DNA of 64,000 bases from Vallitalea guaymasensis (GTDB lineage: Bacteria > Bacillota > Clostridia > Lachnospirales > Vallitaleaceae): positions 1,240,001-1,304,000 of the forward strand of contig NZ_CP058561.1 of the NCBI RefSeq assembly GCF_018141425.1, given 5' to 3'. Below are positions 2,423 to 19,318 of this stretch, piece by piece. Positions within the stretch are counted from its first letter, which is position 1. The number at the start of each line of letters is the position of its first letter. The notes under the pieces are model-generated. The model saw only the letters and a list, made by a program, of their open reading frames with translations. It ran no database searches and was not told where the DNA came from. The position numbers were made by a program, and so were the translations under genes.

Positions 2423-3121
2423 TTAAATAACTTCTAATTTACTTTCTATTATGTTAATGGTATCTTGCATATTCTCAAGATGAAAGAAATGACCTCCATT
2501 AACCTTGCATATAGTACACATCCCACTAGTAGTCTTTCGCCATTCAAGCAGTTCTGAATTTTTAATAGAATTATCTTGTGTTCCACTTAATACAGTAATA
2601 TCACTTTCAATTAATTCATTTTCTGCAGGATTTTCATAGCTCTCAATAATGGCGAAATCACTCCTGAATATTTGAAGATACTTGTCTACAAATTCTGGTG
2701 AATTAATTATTTTTTCACTTGTTCCACCAATCTCTCTAATTCTATTCATGAACTCTCCATCTGTCATATCTCTGTATTTAAGTTCCTCTTTCTTCGTTAA
2801 TGGAGACCACCTACCTGAAAAAAATATATGTACTGGTGGCTCCATCCCTTTCTTAATTAATCGAAAGTACACATGATAAACTAACCAACAACCCAAACTA
2901 TGCCCGAATAAAGCATATTTCTCATCTGATTGATTGTTAATAATCTCTTCTACCAAATCATCAACGGCCTCATCAAAACATTTATATAAGGCTTGTTCAG
3001 ACTTAGCTCCTCTCCCTGCCAGTTCTAGAGGAACAATTTTTATATTATCATTCATAAGCAGCTTCCATTGATAATAGTTGAGTGCGGAACTACCAGCATG
3101 TGGAACGCAGTATAGTATCAT
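2423..3121 (-). CDS. Type II thioesterase
   Basis: Alpha/beta-hydrolase of the GrsT/RifR type II thioesterase family, normal length (232 residues), acting on carrier proteins to remove stalled or wrong acyl groups. It starts MILYCVPHAGSSA, typical of the family; the nucleophile is in FGHSLGCWL near residue 90, the acid lies in the LSGTQDNS region near residue 183 and the His in VNGGHFFHLE near residue 211. The reading frame can be extended three codons to a TTG, but the ATG at 3119-3121 has AAGGA nine bases upstream and gives the usual family start. It lies between the AT and FAAL-ACP genes in the same leftward operon. Confidence 0.92.
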   Translation of the reverse strand: MILYCVPHAGSSALNYYQWKLLMNDNIKIVPLELAGRGAKSEQALYKCFDEAVDDLVEEIINNQSDEKYALFGHSLGCWLVYHVYFRLIKKGMEPPVHIFFSGRWSPLTKKEELKYRDMTDGEFMNRIREIGGTSEKIINSPEFVDKYLQIFRSDFAIIESYENPAENELIESDITVLSGTQDNSIKNSELLEWRKTTSGMCTICKVNGGHFFHLENMQDTINIIESKLEVI

Positions 3122-3160
3122 AGTAACCAATCCTTTCCCACATTAAATACATCTGTTAGA

Positions 3161-4411
3161 TTAAGCATAATATTCTTCCAACAAATAATAATTACTTGTT
3201 TCATCCAATAATTGTTTTATCCAGCTTCTTCGTTCTCTCTCTGGTACATTTTTTGCCTTCAATATATTCTCTAAATATTGGATTGCCATTTCCATATCTG
3301 TTTTCAGAATCTTCCTATGACTATCAGTTATATCTTTATGGAGCTTTTTGATATTGTTATAATTATCAACTACTCCTTTTTGGTAATTTTCATTAGATGT
3401 ATTAGCATTTTGGGTAGCCACTGCAATACCTAAACAACGACTCATAAATTCTGGAATATCCTTTTTGTAATTCTCATCTCCAAGAAAGTTCTCATGAAAA
3501 TATTTTCTATCCATTTTCTTACCAAAACAATAGGCTGTCATTTCAGGTGCTATGTTTTCAATAAGATTTGTTACCAAATTCTTAGGTCCCATTTCTAAGG
3601 CAATGGACACACCATATTTATCCATACATTCAATAATATTCTTCCACTGAACCGGATGAGTAAGATGCTTTGACATAACCTCTGGAATAAGTTCTGGATC
3701 ACTAAAAGGTCTACCATGTAAATTTGTAATTACAGGTATTCTAAATGGGTAGTATTCAAATTCAAGAAGGTAGTCATAAAATTTTTTCTGTATGCTTCCC
3801 ATTAAAGGACAATGCATTGGGGTACTTGTAATAAGTGGTGTAATCCTTGCATCGCTATCAAGAAGCTTTTCCTGCATTATTTCAATACCTTCATTCGTTC
3901 CACTGATGAGTATCTGATTATGGGAACTCTCACAGGAAATATAGACATCCTTATTTAATTTAGAGTCCTCAATTAAACTTTCAACAGTTTTATAATCCAC
4001 CTCTTCAGCAATCAACATAGTTCCTATATTCTGTTTATATACATCCTCCAACAATTCTCCCCGCTTCATTAGTATCTTGATACCATCTGAGAAGCGAACA
4101 GCACCTGAGGTAATGAATGCTGATATTTCACCTACACTATGTCCTGCACAGAATTGTGGGGTCATTCCATACTCATAGAAATAGGCACGAGCAATTGCAA
4201 CACAAGTTGTTGTTACAGCCAATTGCATATTGTTCATTTTGCTAAGCGTCCCTAGACTACTTTTGAAGCATAGCTTTGCTACATCTACTCCGGATATATC
4301 ACTGGCTTCTTCGTATGTCTGCCTACATATTAAATAATTATTATAAAAAGATTCTCCCATCCCTACATACTGGGCACCTTGACCTGGAAATACTAATGCT
4401 ATTTTATCCAT
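3161..4411 (-). CDS. Discrete (trans-acting) acyltransferase
   Basis: A 416-residue free-standing acyltransferase of the malonyl-CoA:ACP transacylase family, expected to charge carrier domains of the AT-less modules. It opens MDKIALVFPGQGAQYVG, has the nucleophile in AGHSVGEIS near residue 89 and the catalytic His in STPMHCPLM near residue 200. The usual malonyl signature GAFH is replaced by a variant (TPMH), so the acyl specificity should not be assumed. About 110 extra C-terminal residues follow the catalytic fold, as in FenF-like ATs of Bacillus lipopeptide clusters. The ATG at 4409-4411 was chosen because AGGAGG lies just upstream; it overlaps the FkbH gene by 8 bases. Being next to the hydroxymalonyl-ACP genes, it could move malonyl or hydroxymalonyl units. 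Confidence 0.9.
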   Translation of the reverse strand: MDKIALVFPGQGAQYVGMGESFYNNYLICRQTYEEASDISGVDVAKLCFKSSLGTLSKMNNMQLAVTTTCVAIARAYFYEYGMTPQFCAGHSVGEISAFITSGAVRFSDGIKILMKRGELLEDVYKQNIGTMLIAEEVDYKTVESLIEDSKLNKDVYISCESSHNQILISGTNEGIEIMQEKLLDSDARITPLITSTPMHCPLMGSIQKKFYDYLLEFEYYPFRIPVITNLHGRPFSDPELIPEVMSKHLTHPVQWKNIIECMDKYGVSIALEMGPKNLVTNLIENIAPEMTAYCFGKKMDRKYFHENFLGDENYKKDIPEFMSRCLGIAVATQNANTSNENYQKGVVDNYNNIKKLHKDITDSHRKILKTDMEMAIQYLENILKAKNVPERERRSWIKQLLDETSNYYLLEEYYA

Positions 4412-5480
4412 ATATCCTCCTTCTCTCATCCTCTTCATATTCAGGAAGATCTGAAATCAATGTGACATACTCTGGTATCTTTTGTATCCTACTTAAGTCA
4501 TTTTTCATAAGAATAAAATTCTCTTTTTTCTCAAACACTTTAAATCCCGCCAAATTGTATGTAAGCTGCATCATCTTATTCTTTTCTGTTTGAATAAACT
4601 TAGCGTATAATTCTCTATTAGCTGTCTGAGCCATATCCATAATATAATTAAGTAAAATAGTTCCAATCCCTCTGGACATGACTCTACAGGACATGATGAA
4701 CAATTCCAATACCCATCGTTCATTACTTGTGTCAATTAAAATAATACCTATTTTTCCATAGGTTCCATATTTATCGTCTAGTCCAATGATTAACAATTTG
4801 TGAGTATCAGAATCCTGCATAAGTTTTAATTCTTCATAGGAATAGGTATAACCCGTTGTATTTAATTGATTTGTTCTTTCTGTTAGTTCTATTACACGAT
4901 CCAGATCTTCATCTTTTGCATACTGAATACTAATTTTCATATCTAAGGATGCTAAAAAATCTTCCTGTGGTCCTTGATACGTCTCTTCAACTTTTTTTCT
5001 ATGATAATCCGCTATGTACATCTCTCTTCTTCTCATTGAGTCCTTTGTAATAAAATCAGGGATGAAAATATCCTTATCAAGAATATTTGTTATTTCATCA
5101 GCATCAAAACACGTAACCTCTGGAATAACACTCTTTACTTCATCTCGTTCAAAATCCTGGTCATCAATAAAAGCAATTGTATTAGCACCAATATTCAAGC
5201 AACTAATAATTTCTTTTACAGCTTGAGATTTACTACTCCAGCTTATTTGAGGGTATAAAAAATAATCTTTTATTCCGAATTCATCTAATTTATCTATAGC
5301 ATCTTCATAGTTGTTTTTACTTGATATTGATTGAAGAATACCTCTATGATCAAGCTCTTTGATAATATCAAGGACATCACTTCTTAATGTCACTTCCTTA
5401 TCTTCAATGAGGACTCCATCCCACATAGTATTATCAAGATCCCATACGACGCACTTTATTTTTTTATTTTTATCGGACAT
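4404..5480 (-). CDS. FkbH-like HAD-superfamily glyceryl-ACP forming protein
   Basis: A 358-residue protein of the FkbH family (HAD fold followed by a GNAT-like domain). Members take 1,3-bisphosphoglycerate, remove phosphate and place the glyceryl group on an ACP, the first step of methoxymalonyl- or hydroxymalonyl-ACP formation. The HAD nucleophile motif is DLDNTMWDG near residue 15; the second half (about 175-345) carries the GNAT-like region with RVMSRGIGTILLNY. It has full family length. It lies 24 bases after a free ACP and close to the dehydrogenases of the same pathway. In some clusters FkbH-like domains load lactate or glycerate as a starter; the presence of both dehydrogenases argues for an extender unit here. 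Confidence 0.92.
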   Translation of the reverse strand: MSDKNKKIKCVVWDLDNTMWDGVLIEDKEVTLRSDVLDIIKELDHRGILQSISSKNNYEDAIDKLDEFGIKDYFLYPQISWSSKSQAVKEIISCLNIGANTIAFIDDQDFERDEVKSVIPEVTCFDADEITNILDKDIFIPDFITKDSMRRREMYIADYHRKKVEETYQGPQEDFLASLDMKISIQYAKDEDLDRVIELTERTNQLNTTGYTYSYEELKLMQDSDTHKLLIIGLDDKYGTYGKIGIILIDTSNERWVLELFIMSCRVMSRGIGTILLNYIMDMAQTANRELYAKFIQTEKNKMMQLTYNLAGFKVFEKKENFILMKNDLSRIQKIPEYVTLISDLPEYEEDERRRIYG

Positions 5481-5504
5481 GTAACACGACTCCCTCCTAC
5501 TAAG

Positions 5505-5756
5505 TTATTTCATTTTACTTTCAATAATATTGACAATCTTATTTAGAGTATTAAAGTTATCCATATTCAATTCCACTACATCAATAGCTACATCAAATTC
5601 TGTTTCGATAAATGTAATTAGCTGCATAGCAAACAAAGAATTAACGAACCCTAAATCAAAGAAATCATCATCATCACCTAATGTCTCTACATTTTTCTTA
5701 CCAAAGAATTTGCATAAAAAAGCTTTTAATTTTTTACTGATATCCTCTCTATTCAT
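5505..5756 (-). CDS. Free-standing acyl carrier protein (FkbJ-like)
   Basis: An 83-residue single carrier protein with the DDDDFFDLGFVNSLFAMQ region holding the serine (NSL) that would receive phosphopantetheine. By position between FkbH and the 3-hydroxyacyl dehydrogenase it should carry the glyceryl group while it is oxidised to hydroxymalonyl-ACP, as FkbJ and ZmaD do in the FK506/FK520 and zwittermicin pathways. AAGGAG lies eight bases before the ATG. The serine context GFVNSL differs from the GFDSI/GVDSI carriers inside the PKS proteins, consistent with a different partner set. Confidence 0.92.
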   Translation of the reverse strand: MNREDISKKLKAFLCKFFGKKNVETLGDDDDFFDLGFVNSLFAMQLITFIETEFDVAIDVVELNMDNFNTLNKIVNIIESKMK

Positions 5757-5771
5757 CTTTCATTCTCCTTT

Positions 5772-6617
5772 TCAATAATTGTAGGCATAGAACCCTTGAC
5801 CGCTTTTTCTACCAAGTAATCCAGCATTGACCATTTTTTTCAATAATGGGCATGGTCTATATTTACTGTCACAGTAGCTTTCATATAATACTTCTACAGA
5901 AAATAAAATTGTATCAAGACCAATCAAATCTGCTGTCTCTAATGGTCCCATTTTGTGTCCAAAGCATTGCTTGAATATCTTATCTACATCTTTTGCTTCT
6001 GCCACTCCCTCGTGTACCAAATAGATTGCTTCGTTAACGGTTAGCATCAATACACGATTGGATACGAATCCTGGAAGATCATTTACTACAACGCCTTCTT
6101 TCTCAATTGTTTTTAATAATTCAAGTGTCGTGTCTATTGTCTTCTCTGATGTGTGATACCCTTTTATTACTTCTACAGTTGATTTAATATGTGCCGGATT
6201 CATATAGTGAGATCCTATTACATTTTCTGGTTTATCCATGAGAGCACCTACTCGAGTAATGGAAAAGCAGGAGGTATTAACAGCATAGATTGTATTTTCA
6301 TTACATATTTTATTTAACTGCAAATATACATTCTTTTTTATCTCCCAATTTTCAGTAACATTCTCAATAATATATTCACACATCTCAACGTTCTCAAGCT
6401 GAGTAGTAAACGTTATACGCCCAAGGATATTTTGGATCGTATCCTCACACTTTTTCCCATACATACCTTGAAAACGATAATCTCTAATTATCTGTTTCTT
6501 AGCTTCTTCCAGTACATTTTCTTCTATATCTACCAAAACAATATTATGACCATATTGAGCATAAGCTAACGCAACACCTCTGCCCATGACTCCTGCACCT
6601 ATAATACCTATATTCAT
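5772..6617 (-). CDS. 3-hydroxyacyl-CoA dehydrogenase family protein (FkbK-like)
   Basis: A 281-residue NAD(P)-dependent dehydrogenase of the 3-hydroxybutyryl-CoA dehydrogenase family. The Rossmann motif GIIGAGVMGRG is at residues 4-14, the catalytic His in GSHYMNPAH near residue 137, and the C-terminal 3HCDH domain contains GFVSNRVLM and FGHKMGPLETADLIG. In FK520-type pathways FkbK oxidises the C3 hydroxyl of glyceryl-ACP before the acyl-ACP dehydrogenase acts, and that role fits here next to the ACP and FkbH genes. Its ATG overlaps the stop of the upstream carbamoyltransferase by four bases (ATGA), a sign of translational coupling. A general fatty-acid role is unlikely given the setting. Confidence 0.9.
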   Translation of the reverse strand: MNIGIIGAGVMGRGVALAYAQYGHNIVLVDIEENVLEEAKKQIIRDYRFQGMYGKKCEDTIQNILGRITFTTQLENVEMCEYIIENVTENWEIKKNVYLQLNKICNENTIYAVNTSCFSITRVGALMDKPENVIGSHYMNPAHIKSTVEVIKGYHTSEKTIDTTLELLKTIEKEGVVVNDLPGFVSNRVLMLTVNEAIYLVHEGVAEAKDVDKIFKQCFGHKMGPLETADLIGLDTILFSVEVLYESYCDSKYRPCPLLKKMVNAGLLGRKSGQGFYAYNY

Positions 6618-8611
6618 GCGTTGAACTCCTCCTCCAATTGTTTATAATACATATTGTCATTAAATAATCTACTTAATTCAGCTTTTGAGAATGGTGATAA
6701 TCCATTGAAATACATCATTGATTTAATCTCTAACTTCTTGCACTCTCTTTTATCTTGTAACAGGTCAATATCATTTATCTTCAAATGAATATAATAGAAT
6801 AAAGCCCTTACAGAGAGTTCATTTGGATTGAATTTCTTCACTAGCTGCTCATATTCGTCTTTATCTTCCCACATTTTTAGACTTATGTTTCTTTTCAATG
6901 GAAACTTCTTATCGTATGATTGGTGGTTCATCAATTCAAAACGCTTTCCGTCAATATACATGATAGGAATATTTTTCCTAAGTGCAAAATTAATTGCTTG
7001 ATCAATATTATTTATAATAGGTTCACCTTTATCATTTAATGAGGTATTACAAATAATTGGAACTCCAGTTATTTCATTAAAGCTTTCCATTACTTGATAT
7101 ATTTTTTTCTGTCTAGTGTTTTTATCTATACTTTGGAGTCTTGCTGTTCTATCCTCGTGAACAATAGCAATAACTTCCTTATCCTTGTCTTCTCGAATCT
7201 TGGATGCATGTAACATAAATGGTGATTCGAATTCGTCCTCAAACCATTCACTGATCTTATCTTTAATAACAATAGGTGCAACAGGTCTCCACCATTGTCT
7301 TTTTTTAATATGATTAAGCACATCTTTTGTTTCCATCTTTCTAGGATCACCCAACAGACTTCTTGAGCCTAGTGCTCTAGGTCCAATCTCGGCACCATTT
7401 TCAATCCATACTATAGGATGTTCTATAATATCCATAGCTGCCTGCTTTGGATCGAATTCACTTACACTTTTTATGAACTGACTATAGTCTTCCTTCTGGA
7501 ATTTACTTAAATCATTCTGATCTCCCCAATAAGCATCCTGTAAAGCAAAGTCAAATTCTCCATTCATCCTATCATAGAATACATATAAACCAATACCCAG
7601 TGCCATACCACTATCACTTACACATGGTGGTGCAATAAATCCTTTGAACTGATACTTGTTCATTAAATGGGTATTACAAGGGCAGTTAAGAGCGAATCCT
7701 CCAGCTACAGCTAGATAAACTTCTTTTGTATCAATACCATATTTTTCTATAAAAAATTCTATATTATGTTCCATGATGTGCTTAGACATTTCTTCTATTA
7801 TCTTCATGACCATACTGATTCTGTTCTCGTGCTCACTAAATCTTGGATCAAAATAATTAAATTTTACACCTTCATCCTCTTGGGTTAGATTATCCACAAA
7901 TTCTATTAGCTCAAGAATTTTATTGTATACATTTTCTTCTACTTTTATATTACTATTTAGAAGTATATCTTCCATATCATAATAAGCAGTACTTTTACTT
8001 GCACTAGCTAGAGCCATCAAGCTTCCCTCTCTCATAGTGAAATGAGAGCTCATATAATCCCACAAAATAGCAGGTGAGCATACGGATTCCAATGCAAACT
8101 GACCATTTTTATAGTCTGTCAAACATCCTACAAAAGGAAAGCGTTTATAGGCTTCTGTATCAGATACAATATCCGAACCTCCATCTACAGAAAATCCTAA
8201 TATTTTTTCGTTATGGTATATATTAGTATCCATGAATAGACAAGAGGATAGATGACACATTGTATGATATGAGAACTCTGGATAACGCCCTAAAGACATG
8301 TAGCTTTCACTATCACCTAACTCTGGCGTTCCCCATACTTCTATTATGTCATCTGTACTTAACCCAAATGAACCTAATAAATGATTCATCAGATCATAGA
8401 ATTGATTTTTATCATAAAAACAATATTGATGCTTTTTAACTCCACTTAATCGTTCAAGTTCCCAATAATGAATAAGCTCTACTTTATTTTCTTGTACCTT
8501 CCATAATGCGATACTTTGATCATGTCTATGAGCAAAACGATATATATTTCCTAGCTGATCAATTTCAACATATGCAGATAGATAATAGCCGTTTTTCATA
8601 TCTTTATTCAT
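6614..8611 (-). CDS. O-carbamoyltransferase, copy 1 (TobZ/CmcH/NodU family)
   Basis: A 665-residue enzyme of the TobZ/CmcH/NodU family, which uses carbamoyl phosphate and ATP to carbamoylate a hydroxyl group. The N-terminal Kae1-like part has the metal-site HxxxH in YHTMCHLSSC, the VDGGSD motif, ALNCPCNTHL and PPCVSDSGMALG; the C-terminal YrdC-like part has IGPRALGSRSLLGDPR, RQWWRPVAPIV and ICNTSLNDKGEP. The frame is open for 17 codons upstream, but the ATG at 8609-8611 is preceded by AGAAGGGG at good distance and gives the same N-terminus as its two neighbours (GYYLSAY). All family motifs are kept, so it looks active. It is the last of three tandem paralogues in the operon. Confidence 0.93.
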   Translation of the reverse strand: MNKDMKNGYYLSAYVEIDQLGNIYRFAHRHDQSIALWKVQENKVELIHYWELERLSGVKKHQYCFYDKNQFYDLMNHLLGSFGLSTDDIIEVWGTPELGDSESYMSLGRYPEFSYHTMCHLSSCLFMDTNIYHNEKILGFSVDGGSDIVSDTEAYKRFPFVGCLTDYKNGQFALESVCSPAILWDYMSSHFTMREGSLMALASASKSTAYYDMEDILLNSNIKVEENVYNKILELIEFVDNLTQEDEGVKFNYFDPRFSEHENRISMVMKIIEEMSKHIMEHNIEFFIEKYGIDTKEVYLAVAGGFALNCPCNTHLMNKYQFKGFIAPPCVSDSGMALGIGLYVFYDRMNGEFDFALQDAYWGDQNDLSKFQKEDYSQFIKSVSEFDPKQAAMDIIEHPIVWIENGAEIGPRALGSRSLLGDPRKMETKDVLNHIKKRQWWRPVAPIVIKDKISEWFEDEFESPFMLHASKIREDKDKEVIAIVHEDRTARLQSIDKNTRQKKIYQVMESFNEITGVPIICNTSLNDKGEPIINNIDQAINFALRKNIPIMYIDGKRFELMNHQSYDKKFPLKRNISLKMWEDKDEYEQLVKKFNPNELSVRALFYYIHLKINDIDLLQDKRECKKLEIKSMMYFNGLSPFSKAELSRLFNDNMYYKQLEEEFNA

Positions 8612-8639
8612 TTGTTTCCCCTTCTCTCTTATCATTATT

Positions 8640-10676
8640 TTAGACGCATTCTTTTTCTTCATTAAATATCAATTCCTTATTTTTCATTTGACTGAAAAAG
8701 TTATACAACATATCAATTTTTTTCCTTCTAAGAATACCTACTTTACTTATATACATTTTTATTTCTATAACACGTTGTAAAGCATCAAGCTTGTTGTCAC
8801 CATCCATAAGCCTATCATATGGCAATCCCCACATTATCCCAGTCATGAATAATTTATCGTCAATATTATGAGGGTTATATTTATGATATAATTCTTGGTA
8901 CTCTTCTTCATTCTTCCATATACCTATGTTCAACTTCCTACGTAAAGGTTTTGATTCCACATAGTTCTCATGGTTTTTCAATTGGATACGATGACCATTA
9001 ACGTATATAATATTAATATTCTTCCTTAGAGCAAAGTTAAAAGCTTCATCTATTTGGTTGATTATTGGCTCTCCCTTATCATTTAGAGAAGTATTGCATA
9101 TTATAGGAACTCCTGTGATTCTATGATACGCTTCCATCAACTGATACAATCTTGACTGCTTCGTATCCTTATCTATAGTTTGTAATCTTGCTGTACCATT
9201 AGAATGAGCAATAGCTATAACCTCATTAATTCTTTCTTCTTTAATTTTGAGAGTATGCAACATATAGGGTGATTCATAATTATTCTCAAACCAATCTTTA
9301 ACATGCTCTTTTAATACAATAGGTGCAACAGGTCTCCACCATTGTCGCTTTTTAATAATATTCAAGGTGTCCTTTGTCGCTTGTTTTCTTGGGTCACCTA
9401 GTATACTTCGCCCTCCTAATGCACGAGGTCCGATTTCTGAATGACCATCAAACCATATTATTGGCTCCTTAATCAAATCCATGGCTCCTTGCTCTTCATT
9501 AAATGGATCTATTGAATGAATGAAGTGTTCAAATTCATTATTATCAAGAAACTTTTCCAGGCTGTCACTTTCTCCATAATAGGCTGATTCTAATTTGAAA
9601 TTAAACTCTCCATCTGTCTTACAATTAAATGCATTAAGTCCAATCCCTAATGCCATACCACTATCACTGACACAAGGTGGCGCTAGAAAACCTTTAAAAT
9701 GATATTTATCCATTAAATATGTATTACATGGACAATTCAAGGCAAATCCACCTGACATGGCTAGGTAGGTTTCCTTTGGAACAATACCAAAATCTCTAAT
9801 AGCATTTTCAATATTCAATTCCATAATCCTATAAGACATGTTCTGAATAATTTTCATTACCATACTTATTTTATTTTCTCTTTCACTGAATCTCTTATCA
9901 AAGTAATTAAATCTGACTCCTGCATCCTCTTGGGTATAGGACTCAATTTCTCTAACTAGACTAAGAAGTTGATTTTCTGCTTGATTTGATTTATCCAATG
10001 GCAAAGCTTTATTTACAAGAATATTATCAACTTCAAGATATGCCTTGCTTTCACTTGCCGCAGCAAGTGCCATCAAACTACCCTCTCTCATATTGAAGTA
10101 AGTTGATACATGTTCCCAAAATATTCCTGGAGAATATACAGGGGATAAAGAAAGGTCTTTAGTACCAGCTTTTGAAAAAGCTGCAACAAATGGATATTTC
10201 TCAATCTCACCTTTTTCGCCTTCTTTATTGTAAGCATTGACAATACAATCAGAACCAGCATCTAAATTGAATCCAAGAACATTTTCTTTTCTATATATCT
10301 CTGTATCCATAAATATACAAGAAGATAAATGTGACATACAATGGTAGGTATACTCAGGATATTTATGTTTTGATAAGTAACTATCATCTGCTAATAATTC
10401 TGGAACACCCCATATTTCTATGACATCATCTAATGTTAATCCTTCTTTTTCTAGTAAACTACTCAAAATCTGTTGACAATGTTCTTTATCATAGCAGGCA
10501 AATGCATTTTGTTTGTACCCAGTTAATCGCTCTAGTTCCCAATAACGTATAAGCTTTACATTAGAATTCTTTTTTTCCCATAGTGCAACGCAATTATCAT
10601 GTCGAATTCCTATTGAAAGAACATTACTAGCCTCATTGATTTCTAAATATGCTGATAAATAATATCCATCTTTCAT
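8640..10676 (-). CDS. O-carbamoyltransferase, copy 2 (TobZ/CmcH/NodU family)
   Basis: A 678-residue paralogue of the flanking two genes, predicted to transfer a carbamoyl group from carbamoyl phosphate to a hydroxyl. It has YHCMSHLSSC (HxxxH metal site), LDAGSD in place of the VDGGSD of its sisters, ALNCPCNTYL, PPCVSDSGMALG, IGPRALGGRSILGDPR and RQWWRPVAPIV, so both the Kae1-like and YrdC-like halves seem intact. The divergent region is the C-terminal tail of about 90 residues, which ends in a Lys/Glu-rich segment. It lies 28 bases before copy 1 and 19 bases after copy 3. Tandem duplication with kept active-site motifs suggests different acceptor hydroxyls rather than decay. Confidence 0.93.
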   Translation of the reverse strand: MKDGYYLSAYLEINEASNVLSIGIRHDNCVALWEKKNSNVKLIRYWELERLTGYKQNAFACYDKEHCQQILSSLLEKEGLTLDDVIEIWGVPELLADDSYLSKHKYPEYTYHCMSHLSSCIFMDTEIYRKENVLGFNLDAGSDCIVNAYNKEGEKGEIEKYPFVAAFSKAGTKDLSLSPVYSPGIFWEHVSTYFNMREGSLMALAAASESKAYLEVDNILVNKALPLDKSNQAENQLLSLVREIESYTQEDAGVRFNYFDKRFSERENKISMVMKIIQNMSYRIMELNIENAIRDFGIVPKETYLAMSGGFALNCPCNTYLMDKYHFKGFLAPPCVSDSGMALGIGLNAFNCKTDGEFNFKLESAYYGESDSLEKFLDNNEFEHFIHSIDPFNEEQGAMDLIKEPIIWFDGHSEIGPRALGGRSILGDPRKQATKDTLNIIKKRQWWRPVAPIVLKEHVKDWFENNYESPYMLHTLKIKEERINEVIAIAHSNGTARLQTIDKDTKQSRLYQLMEAYHRITGVPIICNTSLNDKGEPIINQIDEAFNFALRKNINIIYVNGHRIQLKNHENYVESKPLRRKLNIGIWKNEEEYQELYHKYNPHNIDDKLFMTGIMWGLPYDRLMDGDNKLDALQRVIEIKMYISKVGILRRKKIDMLYNFFSQMKNKELIFNEEKECV

Positions 10677-10695
10677 TGGACTTCTACCTTTCCTA

Positions 10696-12690
10696 CTATA
10701 GTTTTTTTGTATTTATATTGGCATTCATTATTCTTATTAAAAGAATTTGCTTATTAAATAATGGATCTTTTTTCAGTAGTTCTTTTACTTGTTTTGCAAT
10801 CTCCTTCTGCTTTTCATAATCTAAATCAAATAATTCGATGCCTTTATACAAATTGGTAAATGTATAAACATAGATTTCTTTTTGAGAGAGGTTATATGGA
10901 TTATATTTTTTAATTAATTCTTGTTTATGAAACTCATCTTTCCATATTTCCATTTGAAGCTTTCTCTCCAATACTTCTTGGTTCTTATATTGTTCATGAT
11001 TCTTGAATAGTATTCTATAACCATTGAAATAGCCCACTCTTATATTTTTACGCAAAGCAAAATTACAGGCTTCTTCAATTCTATTGATTATAGGTTCTCC
11101 CTTATCATTCAAAGAGGTATTACAGATAATAGGTACTCCTGACACATTCTCAAATTCCTTCATTACCTTATAGAGGTATGTTTGAGGATTACTTCTATCA
11201 ATAGTCTGCAACCTTGATGTTCCATCTTCATGGACGATTGCAGGTACTATCTGTCTTTTATCCTCTAACAGTTCTAGAGCTTGTAACATAAAAGGAGACT
11301 CGTAATCATTATAAAACCATTCACCTACTTTTTCTTTTAATACAATAGGAGCTACAGGTCGCCACCATTGTCTTTTCTTTACTTCATTCAAACGATCCTT
11401 TGTTCTAGTATATCTAGGATCACCAATCAAACTTCTTGCACCTAAAGCTCTTGGTCCAACCTCAGAATTTCCTTCATACCATAGAACAATGTCTTCTTGC
11501 ATATCTTCTACAACTTTAACTGCATCAAATTCTTCAACGCTTTCTATAAAATTACTGAATTCCTGTTTATCTAAGAATTCTTTTACTTTATAGCTATCAC
11601 CGTAATAAGCATGTTCTAATTTGAAATCAAAATCCCCTGAGGTTCTCACATAAAACGATGATAATCCAATCCCCAATGCCATACCAGAATCACTTACACA
11701 AGGTGGTGCTATAAATCCTTTAAAATGATATTTATTCATTAAATAAGTGTTGCATGGACAATTCAAAGCAAATCCACCTGACATAGCAAGATATGTATCC
11801 TCTGTACTTAAACCAAATTTCTCAATAGCTTCTTCAATGCTATTGTCCATAATTTTATAGGATATTTGTTGAACTATTTTCATAGCCATACTAATACGAT
11901 TTTCCTTCTCACTGAATCTTTCATCGAAATAGTTGAATTTTTCACCTATATCATCTTTGGTATAAGTATCTATTTCATCCATCATACTGAATATTTTTTT
12001 ACGACTGTTTGTCCCCATCTTAAACTCATCAAAAGGCAATAGATCTTCTATATTATAATAGGCTTTACTCTCACTAGCGGAAGCTAATGCCATTAAAGTA
12101 CCTTCTCTTATGTTATATCGCATTAAAGCCCATCCCCATATTTCAGCTGGTGATACAACTGGAAATAAGTTCAACTTTTTTCCAGCTTCTGAGTAACATC
12201 CCATATAAAAATGCCGGTCATATTCACTTATACCCTCTCTATCATACGCATCAATAGTGTTATCAGAGCCACCGTCTACAGCAAATGCTAGAATATTTTC
12301 ATGCCTGAATATATCCATATCCATACAAAGACAAGATGCCAAATGAGCAAAACCGTGTAATGTGTATTCAGGAAACAAGTACTTTGGTAAATAGCTATCA
12401 TCCTCTTGTAACTCTGGCTCACCCCATATCTCTACTACATCATCTAATGTAATATCATATTCACTTAACAATTCATTGATAATATCTTTACACTGCTTGA
12501 CATCAAAAAATGGTAACCTTTGTTGTTTAATACCTGTTAACCTTTCTAACTCCCAATAATGGATTAAGGATACGCTGCGTCCTTTTTTTTCCCACAAAGC
12601 AATACTTTCATCATGTCTATGTCCTGCTTGATACAGATGACCTAATTTAGAGATATTAATATAAGCAGAGACATAAAACCCATCCTTCAT
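10696..12690 (-). CDS. O-carbamoyltransferase, copy 3 (TobZ/CmcH/NodU family)
   Basis: A 664-residue paralogue and the first of the three in transcription order, 35 bases after the ETF alpha gene. Family marks: LHGFAHLASC (HxxxH), VDGGSD, GGFALNCPCNTYL, PPCVSDSGMALG, VGPRALGARSLIGDPR, RQWWRPVAPIV and ICNTSLNDKGEP. The start MKDGFYVSAY has AAGGGAG upstream. It is slightly shorter at the C-terminus than copy 2. The reaction expected from the family is carbamoyl-adenylate formation in the C-terminal half and transfer to a substrate hydroxyl in the Kae1-like half. Its acceptor is unknown; the alpha-hydroxyls expected from hydroxymalonyl units are candidates (inference). Confidence 0.93.
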   Translation of the reverse strand: MKDGFYVSAYINISKLGHLYQAGHRHDESIALWEKKGRSVSLIHYWELERLTGIKQQRLPFFDVKQCKDIINELLSEYDITLDDVVEIWGEPELQEDDSYLPKYLFPEYTLHGFAHLASCLCMDMDIFRHENILAFAVDGGSDNTIDAYDREGISEYDRHFYMGCYSEAGKKLNLFPVVSPAEIWGWALMRYNIREGTLMALASASESKAYYNIEDLLPFDEFKMGTNSRKKIFSMMDEIDTYTKDDIGEKFNYFDERFSEKENRISMAMKIVQQISYKIMDNSIEEAIEKFGLSTEDTYLAMSGGFALNCPCNTYLMNKYHFKGFIAPPCVSDSGMALGIGLSSFYVRTSGDFDFKLEHAYYGDSYKVKEFLDKQEFSNFIESVEEFDAVKVVEDMQEDIVLWYEGNSEVGPRALGARSLIGDPRYTRTKDRLNEVKKRQWWRPVAPIVLKEKVGEWFYNDYESPFMLQALELLEDKRQIVPAIVHEDGTSRLQTIDRSNPQTYLYKVMKEFENVSGVPIICNTSLNDKGEPIINRIEEACNFALRKNIRVGYFNGYRILFKNHEQYKNQEVLERKLQMEIWKDEFHKQELIKKYNPYNLSQKEIYVYTFTNLYKGIELFDLDYEKQKEIAKQVKELLKKDPLFNKQILLIRIMNANINTKKL

Positions 12691-12725: not shown

Positions 12726-13706
12726 TTATTTTTCAAGTTCTGCTAATATATTCTCACCTTTGTCAACTATTACGTAATCCGAGTATTCAAATATGGGGGC
12801 ATTCACATCAGTATTGACTGCTATAATGACCTGTGCACCCTTAATGCCAACCATATGTTGAGTTGCTCCTGACACTCCCAATGCAACACAGATATCAGGA
12901 CTGATACTAATACCCGACTGACCAATCTGACGATTCTCCTGGATCATCTTTTCTTCTACGGCTGCCTTAGTCCCTACAACAACGGCACCATATTGTCGTG
13001 CAACTGTCTTGCATAAATCCATCGAATGTTTCATTCCTCTCCCAACGACAAAGACAATCTTGGCTGACTTAATATCCACACGTTCCTTAAGATCTAATGC
13101 TTTACGTTCCAAAACCTCAATATTTTTGTCTAAACCCTTTTCTGTATAGGAGAAATATTCCATATTGAAGGTTATCTCATTAGTTACAAATCTTGATTCG
13201 AATATATTTTCTTTTATTGTACACATCTGAAGCTTCTCATTAATACATGTTATCTTCGCTAATACAGATTCACTCATGGCTGGTCTAATGAAGACATATC
13301 TTTCCTTATCACCATCATACTTTATATCAGTACAGCATGCAGTTAGTCCAGCATTAAACCGAACAGATAACATCGCAGCTGTCTGTCTGCCTGTTATAGA
13401 TGCTGGAAATAATATGACATCAGGCAGTTTATCTTTTAGCATTGTTGCTATACATTTCACATATAATGAAATACTATATCCTTCTCTTTGTTCACAAAAG
13501 ATAACTCTATCTGCTCCATATTGAAATAATTTCTTGAACTCACCTTCCCGATTCACTCCAACACAAATAACTGATACCTCATCATTATCATTTCTCTTTA
13601 ACCTAATACCTTTATGTAGAATCTGTAAAACATGTTCTGTTGCATATTGTACATCCTGATCATTTATAATCCATATTTTTTTATTTCCCATATGTACATA
13701 CTCCAT
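12726..13706 (-). CDS. etfA: Electron transfer flavoprotein alpha subunit
   Basis: A 326-residue ETF alpha subunit that with the beta subunit carries electrons from an acyl-CoA/acyl-ACP dehydrogenase. The C-terminal FAD-binding domain is plain: GQSGISISPDICVALG near residue 255, SGATQHMVGIKGA, and AVNTDVNAPIFEYSDYVI. The start overlaps the end of etfB by 26 bases; an ATG five codons inside is also possible and has GGAG nine bases away. Position inside a PKS tailoring operon, directly after etfB and the acyl-ACP dehydrogenase, argues for a dedicated electron carrier for the hydroxymalonyl-ACP pathway. Confidence 0.93.
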   Translation of the reverse strand: MEYVHMGNKKIWIINDQDVQYATEHVLQILHKGIRLKRNDNDEVSVICVGVNREGEFKKLFQYGADRVIFCEQREGYSISLYVKCIATMLKDKLPDVILFPASITGRQTAAMLSVRFNAGLTACCTDIKYDGDKERYVFIRPAMSESVLAKITCINEKLQMCTIKENIFESRFVTNEITFNMEYFSYTEKGLDKNIEVLERKALDLKERVDIKSAKIVFVVGRGMKHSMDLCKTVARQYGAVVVGTKAAVEEKMIQENRQIGQSGISISPDICVALGVSGATQHMVGIKGAQVIIAVNTDVNAPIFEYSDYVIVDKGENILAELEK

Positions 13707-14466
13707 TGTCTTTTCCTAATATAATATTTTTAATGATCATAGCCGTATTTTCAATATCTCCGTCCAATATTGTCTGTTCTTTTTTTACCATAGGATTGAT
13801 TTTGTTAACATCTTGAACAATGGTCTTAGACCCTTTTAGTCCACACATGGACCTATCAATCTCTAAATCATTCCTATTCCAAACAACTATTTCTTTGTTT
13901 TTTGCACGTTTTAACCTTAACAAGTTGATTTTTTTATATATCGTAGTACAATTTCTATATGAAATGACAGCAGGTAATCTTACTTTCAACTTTTCAATGC
14001 ACTCACCATTTTCTCTTTCTATAGATGCATTTTCCACACTTAAATCCATTATGGTCTCAACCTGAGCTATGCAAGGCATCCCTAGCTGTTCTGAAAGAGC
14101 ATATACAACTTGTCCTGTTTCACCATCTACTGTTTTTTGTCCACAGCAAATAAGATCCACATCACCTATTTTTTCAATTGCTTTTTTTAGTACATAGGAA
14201 GTTGCGATAGTATCCGCACCTGCAAAATGCTTATCACTCAGATGAATCACATCATCAACTCCAAGTGCAATACAACGTCTTAATGCTTCTTTAGCACCCT
14301 CAGGACCCATACTGATACAGATTATTTCTGTACCTTCTTTTTTCATTTCAATTATATTTTGTAGAGCATACAAATCATATGGATTTATTACCAGATTTTC
14401 AAGGTGTTCATTTTCCTTGTAAACAAGTTCCTTTTTTACAGGTTTAATACACATAACTATTCTCAA
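13681..14466 (-). CDS. etfB: Electron transfer flavoprotein beta subunit
   Basis: An ETF beta subunit of 261 residues, partner of the etfA next door. It shows the family N-terminus RIVMCIKPV, the NPYDLYALQNIIEMK segment, GPEGAKEALRRCIALGVDDVIHL, and the AMP/FAD-site region FAGADTIATSYVL plus CCGQKTVDGETGQV. No ATG fits the family start. TTG at 14464-14466 aligns with the usual MKIVVC start and lies ten bases after AGGA; a second TTG at 14473-14475 is almost inside that site, so I prefer the downstream one. It lies 49 bases after the dehydrogenase gene, in the order dehydrogenase-etfB-etfA that is common in clostridial acyl-CoA oxidation operons. Confidence 0.9.
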   Translation of the reverse strand: MRIVMCIKPVKKELVYKENEHLENLVINPYDLYALQNIIEMKKEGTEIICISMGPEGAKEALRRCIALGVDDVIHLSDKHFAGADTIATSYVLKKAIEKIGDVDLICCGQKTVDGETGQVVYALSEQLGMPCIAQVETIMDLSVENASIERENGECIEKLKVRLPAVISYRNCTTIYKKINLLRLKRAKNKEIVVWNRNDLEIDRSMCGLKGSKTIVQDVNKINPMVKKEQTILDGDIENTAMIIKNIILGKDNGVCTYGK

Positions 14467-14515
14467 GTCAACCAATTCCTTTCATAAGCTAAAATTACAT
14501 TTACCATATTTTTAC

Positions 14516-15655
14516 CTAGACCACTCGACTTCTTATCATGTTATATATGGTATTTTTCTGCATTTCATTGGTTCCTGAATAGATACTGCACGCTAGAGCA
14601 TCCCTTAATTCCCTTTCAATCTCATAATCTTTTGTATACCCATAAGCACCGAATATCTGAAGTGCATCTCTACATGTCTTAATGTAATTTTCACTGACAT
14701 AGGTTTTAAAGATAGAAGACTCCATAAAAGCGCTTTTACCTTGATCCTTAAGCCATGCTATTTTATATAACATCAATCGAGATAATTCTATACTCATTTG
14801 CATATCAGCTATTTTATGAGATATAGATTGATTTTCACCGATTAACCGATTAAATTGTTTTCGATTATTTACATGTTCTAAACATTTTTCCATTATTCTC
14901 TGCATAACACCTACATGTGGAGCAAATTCATAGCAACGCTCCCATTCAAGTGCCGCAGTCATTATATTAGCCCCCATATTGAATCTACCCAGAACGTTTT
15001 CCTTGGGAACAATACAATTGTCCAGTACTATTTCTGATGTAGGACATGCTCCTAGACCCATTTTCTTTATGTCTTCACATACCTGAAATCCTTCAAACTC
15101 TTTTTCTATAACAAAAGCTGTATAACGTTTGAAAGCTCCTTCACTGGTGACTGCGAAAACAATAAAGATATCTGCTATTGGACCGTTGGAAATGAACATC
15201 TTCGTACCATTTAGGACATAATGATCCCCTTTATCTTCTGCATGAGTAGCCATACTCATAGCATCTGATCCAGCTTCTGCTTCAGTGATAGCAATTGCAC
15301 CAATCTTTTGTCCTGCTACCATCTTCTCTAAATATTTTTCTTTTAACTCTTCACTACCGTAGAGATAAATTAGGTTTTGACCTACCCAGATATGATTATT
15401 GATTACAAAAATAAATCCGTTATTCTTACAGGCATACCCTAATCCTTCAAACATCAAAGCTGCTGTAAGATAGCTTTCTTCTAAGCCTCCATATTGTTCT
15501 GATACAGTGACTCCTAATAACCCTAGATCAGAAATTTCTTTCCACATTTCCATTGAGAATGTTTCTATGTACTTATTGTCATTAAGATGATTTTTTGCAA
15601 AATCAATGATTTCATTCTTTAACATCATTTGTTCTTTTGAAATAAAGAAATCCAA
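14516..15655 (-). CDS. Acyl-ACP/acyl-CoA dehydrogenase (FkbI-like), TTG start
   Basis: A 379-residue flavin dehydrogenase of the acyl-CoA dehydrogenase family, first gene of block A. From the chosen start it reads DFFISKEQMMLKNEIIDFA, then AITEAEAGSDAMSM near residue 128, KMFISNGPIAD, and the C-terminal AYGYTKDYEIERELRDA and SGTNEMQ motifs. In FK520 and zwittermicin pathways FkbI/ZmaE-type enzymes oxidise the glyceryl-derived aldehyde to the malonyl level on an ACP; the FkbH, ACP and FkbK-like genes downstream support that role. The frame is open to an ATG at 15751, but the TTG at 15653-15655 has a near-perfect AAGGAGG six bases upstream and the extra 32 residues match no family part, so TTG is preferred. 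Confidence 0.9.
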   Translation of the reverse strand: MDFFISKEQMMLKNEIIDFAKNHLNDNKYIETFSMEMWKEISDLGLLGVTVSEQYGGLEESYLTAALMFEGLGYACKNNGFIFVINNHIWVGQNLIYLYGSEELKEKYLEKMVAGQKIGAIAITEAEAGSDAMSMATHAEDKGDHYVLNGTKMFISNGPIADIFIVFAVTSEGAFKRYTAFVIEKEFEGFQVCEDIKKMGLGACPTSEIVLDNCIVPKENVLGRFNMGANIMTAALEWERCYEFAPHVGVMQRIMEKCLEHVNNRKQFNRLIGENQSISHKIADMQMSIELSRLMLYKIAWLKDQGKSAFMESSIFKTYVSENYIKTCRDALQIFGAYGYTKDYEIERELRDALACSIYSGTNEMQKNTIYNMIRSRVV

Positions 15656-16232
15656 AGTATCCCTCCTTGCTGTTTTGATAGTTAACTGAAATGTATAATA
15701 GAACTGAATATATATTCTGAATAAAAACTTTTTATAGTTAAAATTAGTCATTTAACTGTTCTCGTATAGAAAATAGGGCTTTTTCTTTTTACAATATTAT
15801 GAATAGTTAATTTACAAGTCTTAATATATGTTTTAAACTAGCTCATAAACATGAAATTATAGCACCTTTTTTAGATAAAATATAGAATTATTATCTTTAG
15901 AATTTATTGTTATAATTTTCATCGTATTTTAATAATATCACTTATTTATACATTTTTCAATGTTTTTATTATTTATTATCAATTTTATAGCTTATTAACA
16001 GTTTTTTCTGCTTTTAAATATTAATTAAACCATATATATCAATATATTATTTCAAACTTTATTTTTGTTAACATTTAAATAATTTATTATTAATAATATT
16101 TTACTAATTTTATTATATTTTCAAATTATATTTACGTTTTCACTTAATAATCATTAATGTATTTTTTTATCCATATATTATAATTATCAAATAAATTTCT
16201 TGTTTTACTATTATTTAACATTATACTTAAGC
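15656..16232. promoter_or_regulatory. Long AT-rich gap carrying the block A promoter
   Basis: No gene is visible in these 577 bases, which are extremely AT-rich, especially 15900-16220. All PKS-linked genes of block A run leftward from here with gaps under 50 bases or with overlaps, so their promoter must lie in this stretch. A weak TATTAT on the minus strand (complement of about 15694-15699) and a perfect palindrome GAATATATATTC at 15706-15717 sit just upstream of the dehydrogenase ribosome site. I could not find a convincing -35 box, so the exact promoter is not called. Confidence 0.5.
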
Positions 16233-16526: not shown

Positions 16527-17300
16527 TTATAGTCCCCATACTTCATGTAAAGTACTTCTAAACAGGTTATCTAGTGCATCAATATCATCACTTACCTGTA
16601 TGTTAAGGGTTTTAACATATTCCTTATAATAACATATTTTATCTTCTAGAAAATAATTTATAATATTTATTTTCTTTTGTTTGTCTATTTCGTTGCCACT
16701 TCGTTTTATAACAAGTAGTTTCTCAATCTCATTGACTAATTCTTTGTCTAAGTGTAGATGGTTCATAAGGTCTTCAAATAACATAGGTGGCTGAGTTCCA
16801 TATTTTTCAGTCCACATACATGCCATAATTGGTCTAAGTACGTAGAAGTACTTTTTAACTCTTATCTCCTCACCTTTTAAATACTCTCTATAATTTCCCT
16901 CTGCCATATGCAAATAGTGATAGATACATGATTTTGAAGAAAAATAATCTTTTAGCAGCTCTTTTAGTTCATTAACTAGACTAGTTCTCTCCCCATATAT
17001 GATTGGTGAGCTTAACCATTCTAGTAATGTGGGATTGGATTTTTTAAATAACACCAATGTTTTTCTTAGATCCCATCCATTAATGTCAAGTAAGTTGTTT
17101 ATAGGTAATTCTATGACATCTCTTTTTTCCTTAATGGACATATACCATTCTGGTTTGTGAATATATATAAATCTTACATCATAATCACTATCTTTGGATT
17201 CAAAGCCCCAGCCCCTGCTTCCTGATTCTACAGCATATAGGATTTTCACTTCATGTTCTTGCTCTATCTCTTTCAACTTTTGTAATATAATGTCTCTCAT
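16527..17300 (-). CDS. Nucleotidyltransferase-fold protein (YcgL/COG3541-like)
   Basis: A 257-residue predicted nucleotidyltransferase. The signature is AVESGSRGWGFESKDSDYDVRFIYIH at about residues 23-48, read in two parts: the GSRGWG glycine-serine motif and the DYDVRF double-aspartate metal motif. The rest is helical with FKKSNPTLLEWLSSP near residue 87, typical of the COG3541/YcgL group found in many bacteria and phages. The substrate is unknown; members have been suggested to modify RNA or protein with nucleotides. AAGGGG lies nine bases before the ATG. It has no visible link to the PKS genes. Confidence 0.85.
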   Translation of the reverse strand: MRDIILQKLKEIEQEHEVKILYAVESGSRGWGFESKDSDYDVRFIYIHKPEWYMSIKEKRDVIELPINNLLDINGWDLRKTLVLFKKSNPTLLEWLSSPIIYGERTSLVNELKELLKDYFSSKSCIYHYLHMAEGNYREYLKGEEIRVKKYFYVLRPIMACMWTEKYGTQPPMLFEDLMNHLHLDKELVNEIEKLLVIKRSGNEIDKQKKINIINYFLEDKICYYKEYVKTLNIQVSDDIDALDNLFRSTLHEVWGL

Positions 17301-17572: not shown

Positions 17573-19258
17573 CTAGAAGTTGATTCTAGTTGTAGTATCT
17601 ACGCTATCTATTGCTTGCCATATACGATACATAGTCATAAAGGCTTGTTGTCTTTGATATGAGTCTTGTGGAGCAAACCGTCCACCACCTACACCCTTCA
17701 TAACATTTATATCGTATACATAACCGGTATAAGGTTTAGCCCAATCAGCTATCTCACTGATATCAGCATAATTTGGTGTACTTAGACTTACATTTCTTCC
17801 ACATGCCATAGCAGTAGTTGTAAGGAACTTAGCTGCTTGCTCACGAGTTAATAACTTATCAGGTTCAAAAGTATCAGGTGATGTACCATCTGTAATACCA
17901 AGTGCTTTTGCAGCTAAAACCTCTTTTGTATCACAATCAATGAAGGTAGTATTTGCTGCAATTTCTATACCTATCTCATGGAGATAGTCATCTATATCCA
18001 TACCTGACTTTACTTCTATCATTCTAATGGCAAGTATGCAGAATTCTTCTCTAGTGATTGGCTTAATGTAGTTGTTTTGTAAATCTTCTGGTATGAGCTT
18101 TTCACCTATAGCCTTTTCTACTTCGTCTACAGCCCAGTTCGCAGGTGAGTCTTGAACCTTGTCAAGTATCATTGTAAGAGGTGTATACCAAGTTGCATCA
18201 ATATCATAACCAAGTCCACCTCTATAATTTCCGCCCATAGTCCATAAAGTGTAATCTGTCTTTACTACTGCTGCGTGGCGTTCACCTAAAGATATGTTAA
18301 GTACGTCATTAGTTATCTTATTAAGTGATTTCTCATCGACACTCTTGCCTTCATAACTATAACCCCAGCCCCATAGACTGTTATCAGTTTTGACGATGAA
18401 AGTATTATCACCATCAGCTGCACATGTTTTCACGTTATCAATTATTTTATATGGTTTCCCTGCATCTTCAATCCAACCATATTCTTCTGTATAGAAACCT
18501 TTTGTTCCCCAACAATACAAACTGTTATCTGACCTTACTGCTAATACATTCCATCCATCAGGATCAGCAGTAACATAACGTACATCCTCCAGAATCTTAG
18601 TAAGGCTTAGTTCATCATTTGTGTTTGTATCACCTTCTATAGTCATATTTCCCAATTGTGCATAAGAGTTATTTCCATAACCCCATAGAGTATCATCTTC
18701 CTTTATGATATATACCGTCTCTCTACCTGCATGCATATATTTGACATCATCCAATACCTTCTTGAATCCATCTCTTCCATTTGCCTGAGTATTGGTTCCA
18801 TCTCCAGTGTACATGTCACCACATACCCATAGGGAATTATCATTTTTGAGTACAAGTATATATCCTTTTCCACATGCTGCCATTTTGACATCCTCTAAAA
18901 ACTTAACTGGTGTTAAGTATGTAGGATCTAATTTATTACCCCTTGGATATCCATCAAAATTTCCCCATCCCCATAATGTATCATCTTTTTTTACTGCAAC
19001 AGCCGTAAAATCATTAGCCGATACACTCCTGACATTATCTAGTATCTTAACTGGTGTTATCTGCTTTTCCTTATAACCATTTCCATTACCTGAGTACTGA
19101 CCACCCCAACCCCAAAGTGACCCATCATTCCTTATTACATAGGTAGTTCCATGTCCTGCTGACATTATACTTCCTGCTTCACCACCTGCGAAAGCTGTTA
19201 TATTCAAACATAATGTAGTTACAAATATTAATCCTAATATTGATTTTAATTTTTTCAT
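17573..19258 (-). CDS. Secreted RCC1-repeat surface protein with C-terminal SLH domains
   Basis: A 561-residue exported protein. Residues 1-24 form a signal peptide (MKKLKS, hydrophobic core, TAFAGG). Seven repeats of the RCC1 type follow to about residue 375, each with a pattern like VxxDxSLWGWG, expected to fold as a seven-bladed propeller. The last 190 residues hold three SLH-like segments beginning near SPANWAVDEVEKA, TFIDCDTKEVLAAKALG and YADISEIADWAKPY, which attach proteins to cell-wall polymer. The frame extends eight codons upstream, but the ATG at 19256-19258 follows AAGGAGG and starts the signal peptide. Ligand unknown. It forms the end of a likely three-gene operon with the lipoprotein and the DUF4870-like gene. 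Confidence 0.9.
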   Translation of the reverse strand: MKKLKSILGLIFVTTLCLNITAFAGGEAGSIMSAGHGTTYVIRNDGSLWGWGGQYSGNGNGYKEKQITPVKILDNVRSVSANDFTAVAVKKDDTLWGWGNFDGYPRGNKLDPTYLTPVKFLEDVKMAACGKGYILVLKNDNSLWVCGDMYTGDGTNTQANGRDGFKKVLDDVKYMHAGRETVYIIKEDDTLWGYGNNSYAQLGNMTIEGDTNTNDELSLTKILEDVRYVTADPDGWNVLAVRSDNSLYCWGTKGFYTEEYGWIEDAGKPYKIIDNVKTCAADGDNTFIVKTDNSLWGWGYSYEGKSVDEKSLNKITNDVLNISLGERHAAVVKTDYTLWTMGGNYRGGLGYDIDATWYTPLTMILDKVQDSPANWAVDEVEKAIGEKLIPEDLQNNYIKPITREEFCILAIRMIEVKSGMDIDDYLHEIGIEIAANTTFIDCDTKEVLAAKALGITDGTSPDTFEPDKLLTREQAAKFLTTTAMACGRNVSLSTPNYADISEIADWAKPYTGYVYDINVMKGVGGGRFAPQDSYQRQQAFMTMYRIWQAIDSVDTTTRINF

Positions 19259-19318
19259 GGTTTCCTCCTTACCATCAATCAAGAAATTATATTTTAATTT
19301 TATAAATAATTCTTGCTC

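Follow-up and report, generated by a model that had tools for sequence, protein, structure and literature searches.

Carbamate groups can adjust how potent an antibiotic is, as in the case of albicidin (PMC9633730), and more than one carbamoyltransferase per system has been described before. For the ansacarbamitocins, the same paper names two such enzymes, Asc21a and Asc21b, and links Asc21b to the C-3 hydroxyl; that both belong to one cluster is taken here from their names. Other work reports two carbamoyltransferases with different functions (PMC4486325) and three putative carbamoyltransferases in one genome, which could not be assigned to the cluster (PMC8471579). Here we analysed a 64,000-nt stretch of the Vallitalea guaymasensis genome (GCF_018141425.1, NZ_CP058561.1, positions 1,240,001–1,304,000, forward strand; in the following, the window) that carries three adjacent carbamoyltransferase genes, CT1, CT2 and CT3. 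They probably encode non-redundant tailoring O-carbamoyltransferases of a small trans-acyltransferase (trans-AT) polyketide/nonribosomal peptide synthetase (NRPS) operon.

All three genes lie on the minus strand, in open reading frames (ORFs) spanning 6614–8662 (682 aa), 8640–10676 (678 aa, CT2) and 10696–12690 (664 aa, CT3). The CT1 frame is open to 8662, and the start at 8611 proposed in the initial annotation (gene at 6614–8611) is preferred, with a Shine-Dalgarno-like GAAGGGG upstream and a length similar to that of the orthologues. That annotation had described a tandem of three apparently active enzymes, and the frames are indeed open, adjacent and on one strand. The motifs it listed were likewise recovered from each protein: HxxxH reads HTMCH in CT1, HCMSH in CT2 and HGFAH in CT3, VDGGSD is present in CT1 and CT3 and LDAGSD in CT2, and GPRALG and RQWWRPVAPIV occur in all three. 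Assignment to the class III O-carbamoyltransferases is based on Pfam matches, motifs and aligned residues, and for CT3 also on a modelled structure. Scores for Carbam_trans_C are 173–183 bits (Pfam cut-off 27). Those for Carbam_trans_N are 23.2 (CT1), 30.3 (CT2) and 26.5 bits (CT3) at a cut-off of 24, which CT1 misses by 0.8 bit; these low scores mark the N-terminal half of the CTs as divergent. The three proteins are 49–53% identical to each other, and the 5.63 Mb genome has no further PF16861 match.

The residues expected for catalysis are intact. At 18 checked positions the same residue was found in all nine triplet proteins from three species and in 21 of 21 aligned family members, a count that leaves out a full-length relative from genome G1012 and a partial one (409 aa) from G192. 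The two His and two Asp ligands of the iron, as well as the general-base His, are among the invariant residues (H26, H112, H116, D139 and D334 in 21/21 sequences); CT residues were paired with those of GdmN by motif and not by residue-level structural superposition. The alignment of catalytic residues proposed in the initial annotation thus revealed no loss of a key residue in any copy. The predicted structure has the two-domain fold of a Kae1-like plus a YrdC-like part, and the CT3 model resembles the structures of TobZ, GdmN, NovN and VtdB. Alignments of the CT model with GdmN extend to GdmN residue 617. At their C-terminus the CTs have about 100 extra residues, and the model is purely helical after residue 562, with a block pLDDT (predicted local distance difference test) falling from 95 to 47; the central beta-hairpin of the C-terminal dimerisation domain of GdmN has no counterpart in this model.

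The triplet is present in three of six genomes of the genus, including the one studied here, in constant order and constant setting. Since the order is kept in three species, the arrangement is more than chance. Maximum-likelihood analysis places each of CT1, CT2 and CT3 in a clade of its own that spans the three species (support 100/100), so the duplications are older than the species. All nine proteins group in a single clade, again at 100/100, when compared with twelve relatives, and likewise with thirteen in a second tree, the only one that included the G1012 protein; the partial G192 protein was left out. Omega, from a simple Nei-Gojobori count of Ka/Ks, was 0.042–0.117 in six of nine comparisons, the other three being saturated at synonymous sites. 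By this sequence measure, selection on the CTs is purifying. Open frames, intact residues and low omega rule out pseudogenes or decaying duplicates. Recent amplification or gene conversion was also rejected: the paralogues are about 50% identical and in 60-column windows never closer to each other than the orthologues. With invariant residues, the right predicted fold and purifying selection, the description as apparently active stands, activity itself being a prediction from sequence and model. The paralogues differ most, while the orthologues agree, at residues 144–245 and in the C-terminal extension; by analogy to helix 2 and the loops of GdmN, residues 144–245 are expected to hold part of the acceptor pocket.

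The lineages of the three genes differ in one respect. Synonymous divergence (dS) from the triplet genome G014 is 1.42 for CT1, 2.06 for CT2 and 0.92 for CT3, with 0.74–1.22 for the other operon genes compared. In the CT1 and CT2 trees the window sequence joins G015, in the CT3 tree it joins G014. The CT1–CT2 segment (window 6614–10676) may have been exchanged between lineages.

The initial annotation had placed the three genes in one polyketide synthase (PKS) operon. The operon does hold a PKS; it is a 2944-aa protein encoded mainly left of the window, and not the 8247-aa PKS at 35804–60547. All operon genes in the window are on the minus strand and separated by gaps of at most 40 bases. On one side of the triplet lie genes for a protein of the acyl-CoA dehydrogenase family (14516–15751; nearest solved relative the prolyl-acyl carrier protein dehydrogenase 4irn), for which an FkbI/ZmaE-type role is suggested, and for the beta-type (13681–14475, with an electron transfer flavoprotein (ETF) domain only) and alpha (12726–13706) subunits of an ETF. 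On the other side follow a 3-hydroxyacyl-CoA dehydrogenase family protein with a suggested FkbK/ZmaG-type role (5772–6617), a free acyl carrier protein (ACP) of 83 aa that is a candidate carrier of the hydroxymalonyl unit (5505–5756), an FkbH-family protein (4404–5480; TIGR01686, 263 bits, cut-off 146.65) that would act in glyceryl-ACP formation, a free AT with GHSVG and TPMH motifs (3161–4438), a thioesterase identified by domain match (2423–3130) and a protein that combines a fatty acyl-AMP ligase (FAAL)-like adenylation domain with a carrier protein, the putative starter loader (404–2383). The roles of FkbI, FkbK, ZmaG and ZmaE assumed here follow general knowledge or the papers on butyrolactol and ZmaA-AT.

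The N-terminal end of the 2944-aa synthase is encoded at 1–411, and its gene extends to about −8423. Its domain order is ketosynthase (KS)-ketoreductase (KR)-ACP-KS-KR-ACP-condensation (C) domain, and its active-site motifs are conserved across three species. Beyond it the operon encodes an ACP-like protein of 87 aa, a pair of ABC transporter proteins, an amino acid:[carrier protein] ligase-like protein (L036 6994–7797; NF005479 at 82 bits, below the cut-off of 357; 3mey, E 6.1e-14) and a BtrH_N-like protein, whose match is sub-threshold (27.5 versus 29.7 bits). The gene for the 87-aa protein shares an operon with that of a candidate amino acid ligase of the seryl-tRNA-synthetase-like type. 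The roles of the terminal C domain, the ligase and the BtrH_N-like protein are suggested by family names and context. The whole operon is syntenic in G014 and G015 except for the BtrH_N-like gene, which has a counterpart in G014 only. At the downstream end (L036 4196–5236, plus strand, and 5346–6911, minus strand) the BtrH_N-like gene and the gene of a 346-aa protein are convergent. The latter protein has no Pfam match and is kept in G014 (62%) and G015 (68%); both proteins are possibly acyl-ACP-using transferases.

Amino acid loading was the first idea for the adenylation/carrier protein, and was dropped when database comparison favoured a FAAL-like protein. Its AMP-binding match scores 148.3 bits and its PP-binding match 30.2 bits, each above the respective cut-off. 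The best NCBIfam model is fatty acyl-AMP ligase (237.9 bits, below the cut-off of 600), and an amino acid adenylation model reaches 82.4 bits (cut-off 317.4). McyG is the best solved relative; next come an 'amino acid adenylation domain-containing protein' and several FAALs.

With FkbH, a free ACP, a 3-hydroxyacyl-CoA dehydrogenase and an acyl-CoA dehydrogenase, the operon holds the gene set expected for hydroxymalonyl-ACP, and no O-methyltransferase was found among the operon ORFs scanned for domains. FkbH-type genes without an O-methyltransferase are described as the hydroxymalonyl-ACP type, and for butyrolactol, which has contiguous polyols, the same gene set is described, likewise with no methyltransferase near the cluster (PMC5355916). 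The operon's set is filed here as hydroxymalonyl-type, with no claim that its AT is specific for hydroxymalonyl-ACP.

From gene content, intact residues, predicted fold and strict conservation we propose the following substrates, product, and number and sites of carbamates. The FAAL-like adenylation/carrier protein would load a fatty acid, and the two KS-KR-ACP modules, which have no built-in AT, would elongate the chain with extender units provided by the free AT. FkbH, the ACP, the 3-hydroxyacyl-CoA dehydrogenase and the acyl-CoA dehydrogenase with ETF would produce hydroxymalonyl-ACP, the alpha-hydroxyl of which would stay free because the operon has no detected O-methyltransferase. Starting from a fatty acyl unit, two such modules would yield two beta-hydroxyls through ketoreduction, and hydroxymalonyl units would add at most two further ones, for a chain with two to four closely spaced hydroxyls. 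Numbers from two to four are possible, and three CTs are best matched by three or four. The terminal C domain would couple the chain to an amino acid on the free ACP, loaded by the amino acid:[carrier protein] ligase-like protein, and the product would be released by the thioesterase and exported by the two ABC proteins. In each CT the YrdC-like domain would form carbamoyl-AMP from carbamoyl phosphate and ATP, and the iron site of the Kae1-like domain would pass the carbamoyl group to a different hydroxyl. The reading that we infer to be best is that a short polyhydroxylated lipid amide is carbamoylated regioselectively at three positions. Several carbamates or different acceptor hydroxyls had already been predicted for the locus, and this is the most likely outcome given the deep divergence and the strict 1:1:1 retention; one CT may nevertheless make two carbamates. 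It is tentative, and rather doubtful, to go further and postulate an undescribed product class, a lipid amide with up to four contiguous hydroxymalonyl-derived hydroxyls, three of which would receive carbamates from three dedicated regioselective enzymes, the first matched paralogous trio on one scaffold.

Several observations weigh against this proposal. The only AT found in the operon has, in all three species, GHSVG and an arginine in the RXR region, at the position of FabD R190 (counted by hand). ATs for ACP-tethered extenders (ZmaA-AT, ZmaF) are described with GYSxG and a hydrophobic MXW region (PMC4207774), and this signature of ACP-specific ATs is missing from the operon's AT. Its use of hydroxymalonyl-ACP is therefore doubtful on sequence grounds, and the hydroxyls could number only two; it may use malonyl-CoA in one step or in both, in which case another AT would be needed for the hydroxymalonyl unit. 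Among named families, prolyl-carrier dehydrogenases and PigA come closest to the acyl-CoA dehydrogenase, whose identity as FkbI is proposed from context. The FAAL and amino acid ligase assignments depend on models that score below curated cut-offs. The excess divergence in residues 144–245 is not exceptional (55 of 655 circular shifts reach it) and is a hint at most, and residues 144–151 of the CT model have low confidence. Furthermore, as the example of CabL may indicate, the number of CTs need not match the number of carbamates: CabL is given as the putative carbamoyltransferase for the carbamidocyclophanes, which are partly dicarbamoylated (PMC4728517).

CabL, putatively serving mono- and dicarbamoylated products (PMC4728517), also lends some weight to a partial redundancy of the CTs, by which they would share one target hydroxyl, be it in different congeners or at different stages (on the carrier, after release), or act as mixed oligomers, and the product would carry one or two carbamates. 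Mixed dimers are conceivable since GdmN is described as a homodimer with a pocket loop from the partner (PMC9633730), and starters may vary, the starter loader being among the least conserved operon proteins compared (61–70%; lowest in two of three comparisons). Nevertheless, the split of the paralogues predates the species, no copy was lost in any of the three, and the paralogues are 49–53% identical. We regard this redundancy as possible, although somewhat unlikely. A second alternative, that one or two CTs have taken on a different acceptor (an amine, the amino acid part or an intermediate on the carrier) or a different role and that fewer than three carbamate esters result, gains from the absence of a characterised member among the subfamily proteins found, from unrelated subfamily contexts such as PLP-decarboxylase-like, YcaO/TfuA, radical SAM and NRPS genes, and from the score of the Kae1-like half near the Pfam cut-off. 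It is unlikely, as every class III catalytic residue tested is present in all three CTs.

The window also contains a large trans-AT PKS cluster (31815–63843, continuing to about 80.3 kb) with proteins of 8247, 1330 and 4097 aa and a beta-branching cassette (HMG-CoA synthase/enoyl-CoA hydratase/KS). That the CTs act on the product of this cluster (31.8–80 kb) rather than on that of their own operon is very improbable and was rejected: the clusters are only about 16 kb apart and the large one has no carbamoyltransferase of its own (the three PF16861 matches of the genome are the triplet), but the two segregate independently, with G014 and G015 keeping the operon while the HMG-CoA synthase is unmatched there (E up to 1e-10), and G017 having a 57% identical HMG-CoA synthase and no triplet, and unrelated genes (RlaP, RCC1/SLH, two-component systems, an ABC transporter) lie in between. 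The first two of these are a member of the RNA repair pathway DNA polymerase beta family (RlaP, 16527–17300) and an RCC1-repeat protein with SLH domains (17573–19282).

Searches for the distribution of the genes were a loose first look at samples of 22, 392, 391, 398 and 366 genomes, several of them fragmented. Close triplet members (profile of the three CTs, E ≤1e-60) were found in 3/392 genomes of the order, 2/391 of the class and 2/398 of the phylum, each count including the genome studied. PF16861 occurred in nine of the 398 phylum genomes, with one match each in the other eight, and in 64 of 366 genomes from the phylum of Amycolatopsis eburnea. Among the matches listed for these 64 genomes, many of whose assemblies are in pieces, no two were ≤50 kb apart on one contig. 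The expectation that clusters usually have one carbamoyltransferase agrees with this base rate (a listed pair within 50 kb in 0/8 and 0/64 genomes, again with many assemblies in pieces). A plasmid search matched 313 records, none more than 60% identical, and two plasmid loci taken from the matches listed have gene contexts unlike that of the CT operon.

In Oceanobacillus profundus DSM 18246 a region of about 22 kb has four PF16861 matches of different subfamilies, of which three are neighbours. At this locus (L005 9272–14422) two PhyH-family genes are on the opposite strand to the three adjacent carbamoyltransferases, and the fourth is about 18 kb off. It shares with the CT operon the three adjacent carbamoyltransferases, two ABC-transporter-like genes and a sub-threshold BtrH_N protein, but only the middle gene belongs to the long subfamily (44% identical to CT3), and no ORF matching the operon's synthase was found in its 22.7 kb. 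A Bacteroides metagenome-assembled genome (MAG) has two PF16861 matches about 7 kb apart. In a Tissierellales MAG (L004 8572–11899) a subfamily carbamoyltransferase follows NRPS genes and an amino-acid-kinase-family gene (PF00696), possibly for a carbamate kinase. In three further MAGs (L009, L011, L015) a subfamily member is located directly 3′ of a gene for a pyridoxal phosphate (PLP)-dependent decarboxylase-like protein of 553–560 aa, forming a recurring pair.

No matching system for multiple or tandem carbamoyltransferases or for di- or tri-carbamoylated products, nor one pairing carbamoyltransferases with hydroxymalonyl-ACP or FAAL, was found in the open-access collection searched, subscription journals being outside the scope of this search. 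If the proposed pathway is true, its product would be a polycarbamoylated lipid of a kind without report in that collection, and the paralogous trio, working on a single small scaffold, would offer a natural experiment in how this enzyme family chooses between neighbouring hydroxyls. Being small and conserved in three species, the operon is a practical target for expression. Multi-carbamoyltransferase loci are already known elsewhere; new here is the conserved paralogous trio in a lipid-polyketide operon. The CTs are 21–23% identical to TobZ, GdmN, NovN and VtdB, from which they differ by the divergent N-terminal half and the roughly 100-residue extension at the C-terminus. With the butyrolactol and zwittermicin pathways the operon shares an FkbH-type protein, an ACP, a 3-hydroxyacyl-CoA dehydrogenase and an acyl-CoA dehydrogenase without an O-methyltransferase, whereas the malonyl-type free AT, the ETF genes, the FAAL-like starter loader and the three CTs are its own features. 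Like the ansacarbamitocin system it has more than one carbamoyltransferase per compound family, but Asc21a and Asc21b are two enzymes for a macrolactam scaffold, while the CTs are three, in a lipid-polyketide operon of a low-GC bacterium.
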